Assembly: GCF_001571265.1 (NCBI RefSeq)
Contig: NZ_BCTL01000007.1
Coordinates: forward strand, 62,001 to 126,000
Length of the DNA stretch: 64,000 bases
From: Cedecea neteri NBRC 105707 = ATCC 33855
GTDB lineage: Bacteria > Pseudomonadota > Gammaproteobacteria > Enterobacterales > Enterobacteriaceae
Direction: 5' to 3'
Position numbers and translations under genes: made by a program. Positions within the stretch are counted from its first letter, which is position 1, and each line of letters opens with the position of its first letter. This document shows positions 7,674-13,626 of the stretch, in pieces. The notes below the pieces were generated by a model. That model had not been told where the DNA came from, ran no database searches, and saw only the letters and a program-made list of their open reading frames with translations.

Positions 7674-9267
7674 CTCGCCCCGGAAGTTTTTCAATCAAAG
7701 TAAACAGCATAAAACAAAGCAGCAACAGGAGCAGCGCGGTGACAGCGCCGTCCTGGCTGCGGTAGGAACCGATTTGCTGGTACAGCCAGAAGGGCAGCGT
7801 CCGGAAATCTTCGTTACCGAATAGCGCCACCACGCCGAAATCGCCAATCGACAATACGCAGGCAAAGGCCAGCGCCTGAGCTATCGGGCGTTTAAGGGCT
7901 TTTAACTCAATGAACCTCAGTCGATTGAAGCCACGAATATCCAGCGACTGACAAAGCTGCGAGTAGCGCTCGGCGATGTCGCGCATTGGGTTTTCGAGCA
8001 CTTTAAGGGCATAAGGAATCGCCATCAGCGCATTGGTAAAGATGACAATGCCATCGGCGGATTGCGGCAGGCCCACGGTATTGTTTAGCAATAAGAAGAA
8101 GCCAGTGGCGAGCACAATGCCTGGCATCGCCAGAATCAACATACCGCTAAGTTCAATGGCCTGCCCGGCGAAAATACGGTTGCGCAAACGAAGCTCGCGC
8201 GAGCTCCAAAGCAGCATCAGGGTTAGCGTCACGCTAATCAGCCCGGCTGCAACGGCAATGCGCAGCGAAGTCCCAAGCGCGTTCCACAGTGCGGGCTGTT
8301 GCAGTACGTTGCCCATGCTGCCGTTAATCCCGTCGACTATCACCGCCAGCAGCGGCGGGAGCAGAATTAGCAGGGCGAATAGAATGAGCAGGCCATCGCT
8401 AACTTTTCGGCGCAGAGAATCCTGCGGATCGCGCCAACCCTGAAGCTGGCTGACGCCGACGGGGATCGCCTTGCTTAACTTCTGGCTCAGTAACACCAGG
8501 CCCAGGCAGCACGCCATTTGCAGCAGGGCTAATAGCGCCGCTTTGGCCGGATCGTAGTCGTAGCTTAGTGCCTGGAAGATGGCCAGTTCGATGGTGGTGG
8601 CCTGTGGGCCGCCGCCCAGCGAAAGCACGGTAGCGAAGCTCGCGAAGCAAAGCATAAAAATCAGCGCGCCAACCGGGAGTATTTGTCGGCGCAACCAGGG
8701 CCATTCGACAAAACGAAAGAAATGCCAGCCCTGCATATTCAGTTGAGCGGCAAGCTGGCGCTGCTCGGTGGGAATGTTATCCAGCGCCTGAAGCAGCAGG
8801 CGGGTCGCCATCGGCATATTAAAGAAGACGTGCGCCAGCAGAATTCCCTGCAGGCCATAAGGGGAAAAGTGCCATTCAAAACCGAGCCAGCCGCTGAGCG
8901 TTGCCAGCCAGCCTTCTCGGCCATAAACGGAAAGAATGCCGAAGACGGCGACCAGCACCGGCAGAACCAGCGTCATGGCGCAAAGCCGCAGCAGCGCCAG
9001 TCGGCCAGGGAAGCGACGGCGGTAAAGCGCGCGGGCTAAAAATATTGCCGGGAAAACGGAAAGCGCGGCGGAAAGAAATGCCTGCCAGAAGGAGAAGCGC
9101 AGGACATGCCAAATATAGCCGTCCTGCAAAATGGCGAGGACATCCGTCTGCGGGGCATTAAGCCATAGCGCCAGAAAAGCCGCCAGGGCTACCGCCACGA
9201 CCAGCGTCGCGGCAAATAGCCCTGGATACAGCCAGCCCGGTATTAGCGACTGACGGCGCGTTGCCAT
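7657..9267 (-). CDS. thiP: Thiamine ABC transporter permease ThiP
   Basis: A 536-residue inner-membrane permease, the same length as E. coli ThiP. It is a fused two-domain permease, with two sets of about six transmembrane helices and two EAA-type cytoplasmic loops: the first near [21 protein letters not shown], cut here to its core [11 protein letters not shown], and the second near [17 protein letters not shown]. The N-terminus [16 protein letters not shown] is conserved. It lies second in the thiBPQ operon, and its ATG lies 25 nt inside the thiB 3' end. Confidence 0.95.
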
Positions 9268-10226
9268 TCATTGATCCATGCTGCGCGCTGGGTGGCGACC
9301 TGCTGAGGCGTAAATTCCAGCGTGGTTTGCGGTTTCACCAGATTGTCGAAGCCAGCAGGTAACGCCACATTGGTCACCGGATACATCCAGTTGCCGGTGG
9401 CAATGGTGTTCTGGAAACCCGGCGTGGTGATGAACTTAATAAACTTCTCGGCAAGTTCTGGCTGCTTGCTGTTCGCCAGTCGGCCTGCCACTTCAACCTG
9501 CAGGTAATGCCCTTCGCTGAAGTCGGCCGCGGCGTAGTTGTCCTTCTTCTCTTCAATGATGTGGTAGGCCGGCGACGTGGTGTAGCTCAGTACCAGATCG
9601 GCTTCGCCTTTCAGGAACAGGCCGTAAGCTTCGCTCCAGCCTTTGGTTACGGTGACGGTTTTCTTCGCCAGCTTTTGCCAGGCTTCCGGAGTTTTATCGC
9701 CATAGACTTTTTGCATCCACAGCAGTAGGCCAAGCCCAGGCGTACTGGTGCGCGGATCTTCGTATATCACCTTCCATTTCTGGTCGCCTTCAACCAGCTC
9801 TTTCAGGCTCTTCGGCGGATTTTTTAGCTTGTTCTTGTCGTAAACGAAAGCGAAGTAGCCGTAGTCGTAAGGAACGAAGGTGCTGTTCTTCCAGCCGCCG
9901 GGCACCTGTAGCGCGCTGATTTCGACGTTAGAAGGCGCAAACAGTTTGGTTTGCGTGGCGGCCTCTACCAGGTTGTTGTCCAGTCCCAGCACGACGTCTG
10001 CTTTGCTGTTCTTGCCTTCCATGCGCACTCGGTTCAGCAGCGAAACACCATCTTCCAGCGCCACGAATTTCAGCTCGCAGTGACAGTCGGCTTCAAAGGT
10101 TTTTTTCACCGCCGGGCCAGGGCCCCAGTCGGCGGCAAACGAGTCGTAGGTGTAGACGGTTAATACGGGTTTGGCGAAAACGGGCGCGGCAACCAGCGCC
10201 AGCAGCGGCAGAAATTTTTTGAACAC
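9243..10226 (-). CDS. thiB: Thiamine-binding periplasmic protein ThiB (TbpA)
   Basis: The periplasmic receptor for thiamine, TMP and TPP. I chose the GTG at 10224-10226, which gives 327 aa like E. coli and is preceded by GAGGTG at good spacing; the upstream ATG at 10274 would lie inside the riboswitch. The product begins with a clear signal peptide (VFKKFLPLLALVAAPVFA, cut after AxA), then KPVLTVYTYDSFAADWGPG, the conserved mature start. It contains the DPRTSTPGLGLLLWMQ and SYTTSPAYH binding-site segments. First gene of thiBPQ, under a TPP riboswitch. Confidence 0.95.
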   Translation of the reverse strand: MFKKFLPLLALVAAPVFAKPVLTVYTYDSFAADWGPGPAVKKTFEADCHCELKFVALEDGVSLLNRVRMEGKNSKADVVLGLDNNLVEAATQTKLFAPSNVEISALQVPGGWKNSTFVPYDYGYFAFVYDKNKLKNPPKSLKELVEGDQKWKVIYEDPRTSTPGLGLLLWMQKVYGDKTPEAWQKLAKKTVTVTKGWSEAYGLFLKGEADLVLSYTTSPAYHIIEEKKDNYAAADFSEGHYLQVEVAGRLANSKQPELAEKFIKFITTPGFQNTIATGNWMYPVTNVALPAGFDNLVKPQTTLEFTPQQVATQRAAWINEWQRAVSR

Positions 10227-10269
10227 TTTGCACCTCAGTAAAAGGGGGCAAAGGAATTGAGTTGAGTGT

Positions 10270-10354
10270 CTCAAATCCCTTCGCCGGCGTTATCCGGATC
10301 AGGTTCGACGGGTATTATCTCAGCGCGGACAAACTGTCCTGGCACCCCGTTGAG
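10270..10354 (-). promoter_or_regulatory. TPP riboswitch (thi box) controlling thiBPQ
   Basis: Read on the minus strand it has the hallmark blocks of the THI element in order: CTCAACGGGGTGCC, the CTGAGA pyrimidine-sensing block, ACCCGTCGAACCTGATC, and GGATAACGCCGGCGAAGGGA. The closing P1 stem pairs CTCAA with TTGAG at the ends. It lies 43 nt upstream of the thiB GTG, so control is probably by masking the ribosome binding site; I see no T-run terminator between it and thiB. It sits between the sgrR stop and thiB, so read-through from sgrR would also pass through it. Confidence 0.95.
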
Positions 10355-10408: not shown

Positions 10409-12067
10409 TTATGGGCCCGGAGGCGCAAACCAGGCGGACTTGAAATCAAACCAGCCTAGCGTGTTCATCCGCACCCCGCGCATGCTGCGCTGCCCTTCAA
10501 TTCGTAACCAGTGGTGAATCAACGGGATAACGTCATTTCGTTCCAGCATTTGCCTGCTCCATTCCGGCAGCGCCAGCGTTTTGCTGTGCCAGCGGCGGGC
10601 ATCGCCCTGCCAGTCGATGGGGATGCACTTTTGAATCAGCGGGACTTCATAGAGCTGGGCGAACAGGGAGTATTCCAGTGGCATAGTGAAGTTTACGCTG
10701 TTCAGCCAGATATCGCTTTCGGCGTCGCCCTGATGCCACTCGTCATAATTGATTTCCTGAATAATCAGCTTCACGCCCTGCTCGGCCAGTAGCTCGGTCA
10801 TTATGTTACTGATCACCCGGTGTTCTACGTGATCGCGGTAGTAGGTGAGGGTAATGCTCTCTAACCCGGTGGGTTTAGCCTGCAGCGGCCCGGGCCGAGA
10901 ATGGTGCCAGCGCGGGAGTAAACCATAGGCCGGGAACCAGTATTGTTGATACTGCTCGGTCGCCCGGTAGATAAGGTTTACCGGGGACAGAATATGCCCA
11001 ATCCATTGGCGCACGTTTTCATTGCAACCCAGGCTGGAGCGGCTATCGAACAGCAGGTAGTAGCAACCTTCTTCCGGGCGGCTTTCTACTGCTTTCTCGC
11101 TGTCCGGCATGCCCTGAAGCTGCACGCCGCAGCTCGACTCTTCACCCACTTCGGGCAATACCCAGAAGTTGACCTCGTCTATCAGCGCCCGGAAGCCAAA
11201 GTAATCATCAAAGGCGTGGATCTTCAGCTGGTTGTGGTTATTTCGCGCCACGGAGTAGGGGCCTGTGCCGACCGGCTGGCTGGCGAAATTTGTCATCGTC
11301 GTCCATTCCCGCGGCAGGATCATGGCGTTGACGCTACCCAGCAGCCAGGGCAACCAGTCATCCGGCTGACTAAGATGAATATCCAGCGTCCAGAGCGTCG
11401 GCGAGGTAATTTGCGTGAGATGGGCAAAAAGCGGCAGGGCGTTGATGCGCTGCAGGGAAGAGATGATATCCAGCATGTCCAGCTCACGGCCATGATGGAA
11501 ATGGATGCCTGGGCGCAGGAAGAAACGCCAGCGTAAAGGAGAAATTTGCTGCCAGTGATGGGCAATATCCGCTTCGAGTTCCCCGTTTTCCTCATTTATG
11601 CGCGTCAGGCCGCTGAAAATCTGGCGGGCAATGTGGGTTTCGGAGCGACGCAGCGCCGAACCGGGCAGCAGATTTAGCAGCGGGCGATAGTAAAGGACAC
11701 GCAGAATATGTCGGCCCTGGCGAAAGCTACGCCCAAGATGAGAAATGAGCATCTGGCGGACAGCGGCTTTGTCGCCGACGATTTGGACCAGTTGATCTAT
11801 GCGATCCTGTTCCAGCAGATCTTCCGCACGCTGCTGCTGGAGCGCCAGCCCGGTATAAAGAAACGTGAGCTGGGAACGCTTTCCTCGCCCGGCCTCAGCC
11901 TGCCAGCTTAGCCAGCCTTTTTCCTGCATGGCGTTGAGTAATGTCCGCATATGGCGGCGGGAGCAGTTGAGCAACTCCGCTAAATCATTCAGCGTGGTTT
12001 CCTGAGGCTTGCCTTCGCAGCATTGCCACAGGCGGATGAACTGTTGTTGCAGACGAGATGAGGACAT
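10409..12067 (-). CDS. sgrR: Transcriptional regulator SgrR (activator of sgrS)
   Basis: A 552-residue regulator of the glucose-phosphate stress response. It senses sugar-phosphate accumulation and activates sgrS; it represses its own gene. The N-terminal winged-helix DNA-binding domain (about 1-110, with [20 protein letters not shown]) is followed by a solute-binding-protein-like domain (about 160-550) starting near [20 protein letters not shown]. The C-terminus [20 protein letters not shown] is the family signature. It is divergent from sgrS with a 67-bp intergenic control region. Its 3' end is 54 nt from the thi riboswitch. Confidence 0.95.
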
Positions 12068-12134: not shown

Positions 12135-12387
12135 GATGAAGCGAGGAGGTGTTTATGAAGCGGTCATCACCTGCGAAGTTTTTCCAACAGTACTTTGCCG
12201 CAACACAGTTTGTTTGTTCTGGATGGCTGGCTCGCCTGACGGTGGAGCAAAGACTAAGGATGCTCGAAGACTTGATGCAGTGGGAGGTTACAACCCCGAT
12301 GCCCGAGAACGCCAACGCGCCGACTCATGTGTGACTGAGTATTGGTGCTTTTCACCGGCCAGCAGCTGTTTACTGCTGGCTTTTTTC
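12135..12387 (+). ncRNA. sgrS: SgrS small RNA (dual function, encodes SgrT)
   Basis: Hfq-dependent sRNA of sugar-phosphate stress; it pairs with ptsG mRNA and others to block translation. The 5' end GATGAAGCGAGG matches the E. coli transcript start. The base-pairing segment ATGTGTGACTGAGTATTGGT (12327-12346) is conserved, followed by the small GGTG/CACC hairpin (12344-12354) and a strong terminator hairpin, GCCAGCAG/CTGCTGGC, with six Ts (12358-12386). At about 253 nt it is longer than the 227-nt E. coli RNA, mainly because the coding part is longer. Confidence 0.93.
12155..12334 (+). CDS. sgrT: SgrT, inhibitor of the glucose PTS permease
   Basis: Small protein translated from SgrS. E. coli SgrT (43 aa) blocks PtsG (EIICB-Glc) transport activity. 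Here the frame gives 59 aa from the ATG at 12155, preceded by GAGGAGG (12143-12149) at good spacing. The conserved core FFQQYFAAT...WLARLTVEQRLRMLEDLMQW lines up with the E. coli protein. The C-terminus (about 16 extra residues after LMQW) runs on until a TGA at 12332-12334, inside the SgrS base-pairing segment. An in-frame GTG at 12149 overlaps the Shine-Dalgarno and is less likely. Confidence 0.87.
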   Translation: MKRSSPAKFFQQYFAATQFVCSGWLARLTVEQRLRMLEDLMQWEVTTPMPENANAPTHV

Positions 12388-12447
12388 GTTTAATCTTTAC
12401 GTATTTAGCGAATACCTCTGACGACACTCTCCTTTTAAGGACACTCC

Positions 12448-13626
12448 ATGCTCTGGTTTTTGACCCGCGCACGCCGTTTTAACCCTGTATACGCTGCCTT
12501 TATGGCCGTCTCCTTCATGATTGGCGTTGCCGGGGCGCTACAGGCTCCAACACTTAGCCTCTTTTTGACCCGCGAAGTTGAAGTTCGGCCCTTCTGGGTT
12601 GGCTTGTTTTACACCGTTAACGCGATAGCGGGGATCGGCGTCAGTTTGTTGCTGGCCAAAAGATCGGATAGCCGGGGCGATCGTCGCAGGCTGATTATGG
12701 TTTGCTGCGTAATGGCGGTGGCAAACTGCGTTCTTTTTGCCTTCAACCGTCATTATCTGACGCTGATTACGCTTGGCGTTATGTTTGCTTCGATAGCCAA
12801 CACTGCAATGCCGCAGATTTTTGCCCTGGCGCGTGAATACGCCGACCGTTCCGCCCATGAAGTGGTGATGTTTAGCTCTATCATGCGTGCGCAGCTTTCC
12901 CTTGCCTGGGTTATCGGGCCTCCGCTTTCTTTTATGCTGGCGCTGAAATATGGCTTCACCACGATGTTCCTTATCGCTGCCGGGATATTCGTTATTTCAC
13001 TGGCGCTGATTATTTTCGCGCTGCCGTCCGTGCCGAGAGTTGAACAGCCTGCAGAGGTGGCGATAACGCAGGTCAGCGGCTGGAAAGACAGCAACGTGCG
13101 TATGCTGTTTATTGCCTCAATGCTGATGTGGACCTGCAACACCATGTACATCATCGATATGCCGCTGTGGATAAGCCAGGATCTCGGGCTGCCGGATGAG
13201 CTGGCGGGCTTATTGATGGGCACGGCCGCCGGGCTGGAGATCCCTGCGATGATCCTCGCCGGTTACTACGTGAAGCGCTTTGGGAAACGTAACATGATGG
13301 TGGCGGCGGTGGCTGCGGGCGTGCTGTTTTACCTTGGGCTAATCCTGTTTCACTCTAAAACGGCGCTAGTGGTATTGCAGCTGTTTAACGCGGTATTTAT
13401 CGGGATTATTGCCGGGATTGGAATGCTGTGGTTTCAGGATTTGATGCCGGGAAGGCCCGGTTCTGCGACGACGCTATTCACCAACAGTATTTCGACGGGC
13501 GTGATTCTGGCTGGCATACTGCAAGGCGCGCTGGCTGAGGGGCTGGGTCACTATTCTGTTTACTGGCTGATGGCGGCGCTTGCGGTGGTCGCGCTGTTTC
13601 TTACTAGCCGGGTTAAGAACGTTTAA
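12448..13626 (+). CDS. setA: Sugar efflux transporter SetA (major facilitator)
   Basis: A 392-residue MFS exporter (12 predicted membrane segments) that excretes glucosides, lactose and related sugars. The length equals E. coli SetA, and landmarks such as VAGALQAPTLSLFL, the loop-2 motif KRSDSRGDRRRL and MLWFQDLMPGRPGSATTLF are conserved. It lies 61 nt after the SgrS terminator and is co-directional; in E. coli read-through and SgrS activity link setA to sugar-phosphate stress. It converges on leuD. Confidence 0.95.
   Translation: MLWFLTRARRFNPVYAAFMAVSFMIGVAGALQAPTLSLFLTREVEVRPFWVGLFYTVNAIAGIGVSLLLAKRSDSRGDRRRLIMVCCVMAVANCVLFAFNRHYLTLITLGVMFASIANTAMPQIFALAREYADRSAHEVVMFSSIMRAQLSLAWVIGPPLSFMLALKYGFTTMFLIAAGIFVISLALIIFALPSVPRVEQPAEVAITQVSGWKDSNVRMLFIASMLMWTCNTMYIIDMPLWISQDLGLPDELAGLLMGTAAGLEIPAMILAGYYVKRFGKRNMMVAAVAAGVLFYLGLILFHSKTALVVLQLFNAVFIGIIAGIGMLWFQDLMPGRPGSATTLFTNSISTGVILAGILQGALAEGLGHYSVYWLMAALAVVALFLTSRVKNV

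Follow-up and report, generated by a model that had tools for sequence, protein, structure and literature searches.

The SgrS locus of Cedecea neteri NBRC 105707 raises the question of why the coding frame of sgrT, carried on this small RNA, runs as far as the segment with which the RNA pairs to ptsG mRNA, and of what would follow for a molecule whose two functions meet on the same nucleotides. In the E. coli-type layout, sgrT lies wholly upstream of the pairing region, as described in the available part of PMC4021124. In the DNA analysed here, a stretch of 64,000 nucleotides from contig NZ_BCTL01000007.1 that we refer to as the window, the stop lies within the block GTGTGA; the upstream position is thus a trait of one layout and does not define the family.

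The sgrT frame at the SgrS locus

An Rfam covariance-model scan of the window identified SgrS (RF00534) with 78.7 bits against a cut-off of 37. The entire model (1-232 of 232) was aligned, and this was the sole RF00534 match at E<=0.001 within its own genome (Table 1). As expected for SgrS, the locus is adjoined by a divergent sgrR, and leuD, leuC and leuB also lie downstream of it, together with a sugar efflux transporter gene, for which the SetB equivalog of NCBIfam scores under its cut-off. This gene stands where setA does in E. coli. The terminator and the small stem-loop (the Hfq module) were both predicted in the SgrS of the window; the E. coli counterpart of the small stem-loop belongs to the Hfq-binding region, according to the extract of PMC7870926. 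The fold of full-length SgrS was not more stable than those of shuffled sequences (z 0.67). An Rfam match to Hrs13 that overlaps SgrS fell below its own cut-off and was taken as chance. Elsewhere in the window, a TPP riboswitch (RF00059; 10258-10359, minus strand; 66 bits against a cut-off of 54.3) lies ahead of thiB (9243-10274; TIGR01276, 579 bits).

Table 1. Features of the SgrS locus, in positions of the window.
Feature	Position	Strand	Basis
SgrS small RNA (RF00534), about 253 nt	12135..12387	+	Rfam match extent; predicted ends
Shine-Dalgarno AGGAGG of sgrT	12144..12149	+	read from sequence
sgrT, 59 aa plus TGA; Pfam domain at residues 8-51	12155..12334	+	open frame and Pfam
sgrT C-terminal tail, 16 codons past ...LMQW, EVTTPMPENANAPTHV	12284..12331	+	sequence
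GTGTGA, last Val codon plus sgrT stop and, in the ptsG-pairing segment, its 5' block (E. coli 168-173)	12329..12334	+	
ptsG-pairing core CTGAGTATTGGTG (E. coli 174-186)	12335..12347	+	
Small stem-loop GGTG-CTTTT-CACC	12344..12356	+	minimum-free-energy fold
Rho-independent terminator and U tract	12357..12387	+	predicted
Predicted hairpin, tail bases 12318-12327 with core bases 12336-12347	12318..12347	+	fold; speculative
sgrR, divergent activator gene	10409..12067	-	NCBIfam NF010149 SgrR, 1051 bits
Sugar efflux transporter gene	12448..13626	+	NCBIfam TIGR00899, 533 bits, cut-off 522

Direct reading bore out the claim of the initial annotation that the frame continues to a TGA at 12332-12334: behind the AGGAGG, an ATG at 12155-12157 opens a frame that remains open up to this stop. 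The TGA forms the last bases of GTGTGA and stands directly 5' of the core, and CTGAGTATTGG begins at 12335. The product is SgrT (Pfam PF15894, 45.2 bits against a gathering cut-off of 27), and an NCBIfam search with it gave no match at E<=1. A wrong frame or a later start was ruled out by the in-frame Pfam match and by the same frame in eight genomes of the genus of the window (code g1); nothing was found in favour of such an error, or of a sequencing error behind the stop position, and we consider this explanation extremely improbable.

The locus resembles SgrS/SgrT of E. coli in its divergent sgrR, its SgrT protein, the ptsG-pairing core, the small stem-loop and the terminator, and differs in where the frame ends. 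In E. coli SCU-124, the one genome used for this comparison, the annotated sgrT comprises 132 nt including the stop, encodes 43 aa and ends 21 nt before the core, whereas the frame in the window ends immediately before the core after 59 aa. The initial annotation had correctly stated that E. coli sgrT ends upstream of the pairing sequence and that the C-terminal extension is longer here. The 21-nt gap agrees with the statement, in the accessible part of PMC7870926, that sgrT extends 'up to nucleotide 153', the core start C174 having been counted from the positions of G176, A177, G178 and U181 in the same text. In this numbering, the TGA of the window falls at 171-173. As reported in the same extract, nucleotides 168-181 are enough for ptsG repression in E. 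coli, and point changes at 149-174 do little while those at U175-G186 matter (PMC7870926). The claim that the stop lies in the conserved pairing segment thus stands for its 5' block GTGTGA and fails for U175-G186: the TGA falls within the pairing segment, just outside the part that is sensitive in E. coli.

Stop positions across the family

SgrS was searched for in 392 genomes of the family, of which 194 had a match and 142, including that of the window, had one above the cut-off. All of these 142 and three further g1 genomes were examined (145 in total), and 52 weaker matches were left out. Relative to the core, the stops of ingroup genomes range from -36 to +3. The stop directly before the core (-1) was found in 20 of the 96 ingroup genomes in which SgrT was recognised, distributed over six genera: g1 (8/8), g106 (4/4), g75 (3/3), g122 (2/2), g99 (2/2) and g109 (1/2), with g109 and g99 represented by two genomes each and three of the -1 loci, like nine outgroup loci, classified by eye rather than by script. 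A stop 4 nt later (+3) was present in three genomes, one each in g109, g66 and g2. The spaced stop is commoner, with 73 of these 96 genomes in 23 genera. The layout is therefore not special to the lineage of the window; aligning the stop positions of related genera, as the initial annotation had suggested, showed the same stop in all of the g1 genomes and in genomes of five other genera against a spaced majority. The remaining loci comprised 34 of 145 in which the script did not recognise SgrT and 15 of 145 of a more distant outgroup type, in which the C-terminus differs. A sixth g66 genome has its stop at -21, and among 18 g2 loci, three of which are already in the main count, 16 end at -21, one ends at +3 and one was unrecognised.

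SgrT is 90-100% identical in Enterobacter sp. Cy-643, Enterobacter sp. Ag1, Enterobacteriaceae bacterium RIT693 and Cedecea davisae, and the sgrR tree places all of these relatives within g1. By the same tree, a record named Cedecea sulfonylureivorans belongs to g66 rather than g1, and its sgrT ends at -11. The 34 loci without a script-recognised SgrT are spread over 18 genera, which suggests that sgrT has repeatedly been lost or has diverged strongly; in one g3 genome (G002, locus L115), an SgrS-like sequence at about 600-780 has an intact pairing segment, and the sgrT region holds a frame without the SgrT signature.

The long open frame of sgrT would not, alone, be improbable by chance; the stop, however, is common to all eight g1 genomes and to genomes of five other genera. 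Its position is accounted for by the conserved pairing segment of the RNA, and selection for overlap is not required. A stop codon of some kind occupies core positions -3 to -1 in all 73 spaced loci and in 24 of the 34 loci without a recognised SgrT; of the former, 72 have GTGTGA or GTGTAA ahead of the core, and of the latter, 23 have GTGTGA there. Because it is present in spaced loci and in most loci without a recognised SgrT, the stop is evidently retained independently of any terminating role and is maintained by the RNA. The segment GTGTGACTGAG contains stops in two frames; kept for base pairing, it terminates sgrT whenever no earlier stop is present and so acts as a backstop. One g2 genome (G369, locus L262) directly illustrates the loss of an upstream stop that is caught by the stop of the pairing segment: GGC replaces the TGA that its relatives carry at -21, and the frame reaches the TGA at +3 in the motif. 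The pre-core stop is absent from all 15 outgroup loci and from some ingroup loci as well: a g109 locus (L152, G216) has GTGTTA before the core and an SgrT that ends at +3, and a g66 locus (L243, G395) has GTGCAA and an SgrT that ends at -21. The motif reads GTGTAACTGAG in L062 and L063 (g99), L068 (g66) and L112, L117, L130 and L141 (g108), and this change from TGA to TAA is seen with both overlapping and spaced stops.

Age of the overlap and constraint on the tail

The history of the overlap was considered on a tree of 61 loci built from SgrR, LeuD, LeuC and LeuB (1581 columns, eight rows being only 35% filled), in which some deep branches are weak (for example, 96/54 and 92/70). In this tree, g75, g109, g1 with g106, g122 and g99 lie outside the clade of the genus of E. 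coli (g139). Parsimony required five changes when -1 was set against the rest and six when -1 or +3 was set against the rest; by a hand count, five separate gains cost five changes under the first coding, and seven separate gains cost seven under the second. When -1 is taken alone, a single early gain followed by losses is as costly as five gains (5 changes; split by hand). Two-state likelihood reconstructions, run under two codings and two models on each of two trees, gave values of 0.61-1.00 for overlap at the ingroup ancestor; the value of 1.00 arose where the fitted gain rate was zero. We favour, without regarding the matter as settled, an old overlap that would have been lost later towards E. 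coli, so that the E. coli spacer would be derived. It is possible, though we do not think it probable, that upstream stops were lost independently and that each loss was caught by the same backstop. The +3 class indeed looks separate in each of g2, g66 and g109, and the hand count by parsimony is equal for -1 alone; this explanation is opposed by the placement of all genera with the -1 stop outside the E. coli clade, by tails of 15-17 residues in five of the six genera concerned and by the likelihood reconstructions, which favour an old overlap.

Past LMQW, the tail of the g109 genome with the -1 stop has 28 residues, in place of the 15-17 of the other five genera. In few, non-independent within-genus comparisons, with g122 and g109 left out, pN/pS rose from the domain to the mid-tail in g1 (0.17 to 0.44; six of eight sequences), g106 (0.44 to 1.01; four sequences) and g75 (0 to 0.64; two of three sequences), and the g99 pair showed the opposite trend (0.59 to 0.19; two sequences). 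Within each of g1, g106 and g99, only one of the last five sgrT codons varies, as expected of RNA constraint. Thus, the tail appears mostly to be under relaxed protein constraint, in three of the four genera counted, which suggests that the C-terminal extension of SgrT is itself probably passive. Selection on the tail as protein was rejected on the same comparisons, relaxed in three genera and opposite in one pair.

Predicted pairing with ptsG and possible competition with translation

The ptsG gene of the genome was found by a pattern search, matches NF008301 (997 bits; 477 aa) and has AAAAAAAGCACAAATACTCAGGAGCACTC upstream of its ATG. Its product contains the KTPGRED motif, the linker via which SgrT inhibits EIICB-Glc according to the extract of PMC3901232. 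For a 37-base SgrS piece around the core and a 57-base leader piece, the predicted duplex reached -30.8 kcal/mol, whereas 1000 shuffles of the mRNA piece averaged -14.7 and even the best of them, at -28.6, fell short of it; these short pieces were picked after a search with long SgrS and ptsG leader pieces failed to stand out from shuffles (-47.6 against a mean of -44.4 and a best of -61.3), and the strong pairing holds for the short pieces. The ptsG side of the predicted duplex is -33 to -8, in the region of its translation start. The paired SgrS bases are 12329-12332 (the last Val codon with the first base of the stop), 12335-12343 and 12345-12352, with G12333 and A12334 in an interior loop. 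The predicted pairing with ptsG would thus be strong and would take in the last sgrT codon and the U of the stop. In the ptsG leader of L232, the predicted complementarity to SgrS at -33 to -8 extends past the core, AAAAGCAC pairing with GTGCTTTT of the small stem-loop.

The footprint of a bacterial ribosome extends about 15 nt past the first base of the codon in its P site, and UGAC is a weak stop context. By this footprint rule, a ribosome with the TGA of the window in its A site would cover the RNA to about 12344, that is, ten of the thirteen core bases, among them the first base of the small stem-loop; the geometry thus supports the claim that translating ribosomes would cover the pairing site. 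When the rule was applied to 102 tabulated loci (nine outgroup loci being outside the table), the core would be covered in 23, only the GTGTGA block in three and neither in 76. A ribosome terminating on the UGA would cover most of the core and reach the small stem-loop, and translation of sgrT and pairing with ptsG or binding of Hfq would then compete on one SgrS molecule, whereas in the spaced E. coli form a terminating ribosome would stop short of the core. Competition between sgrT translation and ptsG pairing is therefore plausible on these geometric grounds, and the two functions may exclude each other more strictly, as the initial annotation proposed. By analogy with E. coli, in which positions 149-174 tolerate point mutation, occupancy of GTGTGA alone may matter little.

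With moderate confidence, we read SgrS/SgrT of the window as a dual-function RNA whose sgrT frame ends on the very nucleotides that form the 5' block of the pairing segment, with the segment acting as a backstop, the overlap fixed in the eight g1 genomes and probably older than the E. coli spacer, and translation and pairing likely to compete. Neutral geometry, in which the overlap makes no difference because translation of sgrT is too rare or ill-timed, seems to us somewhat unlikely. Pairing is reportedly the first priority of SgrS over SgrT synthesis, which would favour this neutral explanation. In the available text of PMC4021124, the two functions of E. coli SgrS act by independent mechanisms, the native level of SgrT is very low and sgrT alone gave no growth rescue, the last two of which also favour neutrality; the same text, however, traces the low level partly to an inhibitory 5' structure that is absent from Salmonella (PMC4021124). 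Moreover, the AGGAGG of the window is well spaced, although a predicted 5' hairpin hides half of it. Anti-Shine-Dalgarno pairing of sgrT was predicted at a mean of -12.5 kcal/mol within g1, and the genus means differ little between overlap genera (-11.4 kcal/mol) and others (-10.4 kcal/mol), these figures coming from a script that chose the ATG with the best value.

Selection might also have kept the overlap if it is useful that SgrT synthesis and pairing exclude each other, or that the paired target blocks termination. The overlap is fixed in all g1 and g106 genomes examined, and in 17 of 17 script-parsed -1 loci (the three classified by hand being excluded) the next in-frame stop lies past the first T-run after the core; in the window it is at 12419-12421, beyond the Rfam end of SgrS. 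The sgrT stop is thus probably the only one in the RNA in -1 loci, and since no further in-frame stop precedes the T-run, readthrough would probably leave the ribosome at the end of the RNA. In g139, the next in-frame stop is at +3 in three of three loci. However, conservation of the RNA alone suffices to explain the stop, the tail is mostly under relaxed constraint, and g66, g20, g108 and the E. coli clade are mostly without the overlap; we therefore regard selected coupling as unlikely.

A more speculative possibility, to which we give very little credence, is a ribosome-gated seed: the tail hairpin would hide the core, and a translating ribosome would open it, hold the core during termination on UGAC and free it on leaving, so that SgrT synthesis would time pairing rather than merely exclude it. 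The 30-nt stretch concerned is predicted to fold as a tail-core hairpin (-8.4 kcal/mol, z -1.8). In the full-length fold, its inner five pairs coexist with the small stem-loop; a longer form of the hairpin replaces the small stem-loop, and its z of -3.03 takes in the terminator. Predicted hairpins were stronger in overlap than in spaced genera (-5.1 versus -2.7 kcal/mol; 8 versus 23 genera; p 0.004) in a post hoc comparison that followed one fold and in which the genera are not independent and two occur in both sets. Predicted accessibility of the core did not differ between overlap and spaced genera (p 0.13 and 0.21).

Among SgrS RNAs, those of Siccibacter colletis, g75, g99, g106, g109 and g122 are like that of the window in having the sgrT TGA or TAA directly before the core, and unlike it in tail sequence and partly in tail length; g99 uses TAA, and one of the two g109 genomes ends at +3. 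Outside this family of RNAs, VcdRP of Vibrio cholerae likewise carries a small ORF and pairing to PTS mRNA on one RNA, as described in the accessible part of PMC8672173. There, the ORF codons were scrambled to alter its two pairing regions, which suggests, as far as the extract goes, that coding and pairing sequence are shared (PMC8672173). VcdRP differs in that its RNA and protein are unrelated, VcdP acts on citrate synthase, and the pairing sequence is described in the same extract as distal, with the ORF upstream (PMC8672173). Overlap of coding and pairing in dual-function RNAs has thus already been suggested for VcdRP, to judge from that extract, and the layout of the window is a variant of SgrS/SgrT. 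No report of an SgrS with its stop in the pairing segment was found among the matches listed, in a search of titles and abstract openings whose scope does not take in the main comparative paper (Horler and Vanderpool 2009).

It is not yet settled how the molecules of a dual-function RNA are shared out between translation and pairing, and SgrS is a standard case with the two segments apart. The natural series of stops from -36 to +3 provides a ready set for measuring the effect of spacing on this trade-off. In addition, our results suggest that the spaced layout of the model organism may be the derived one.
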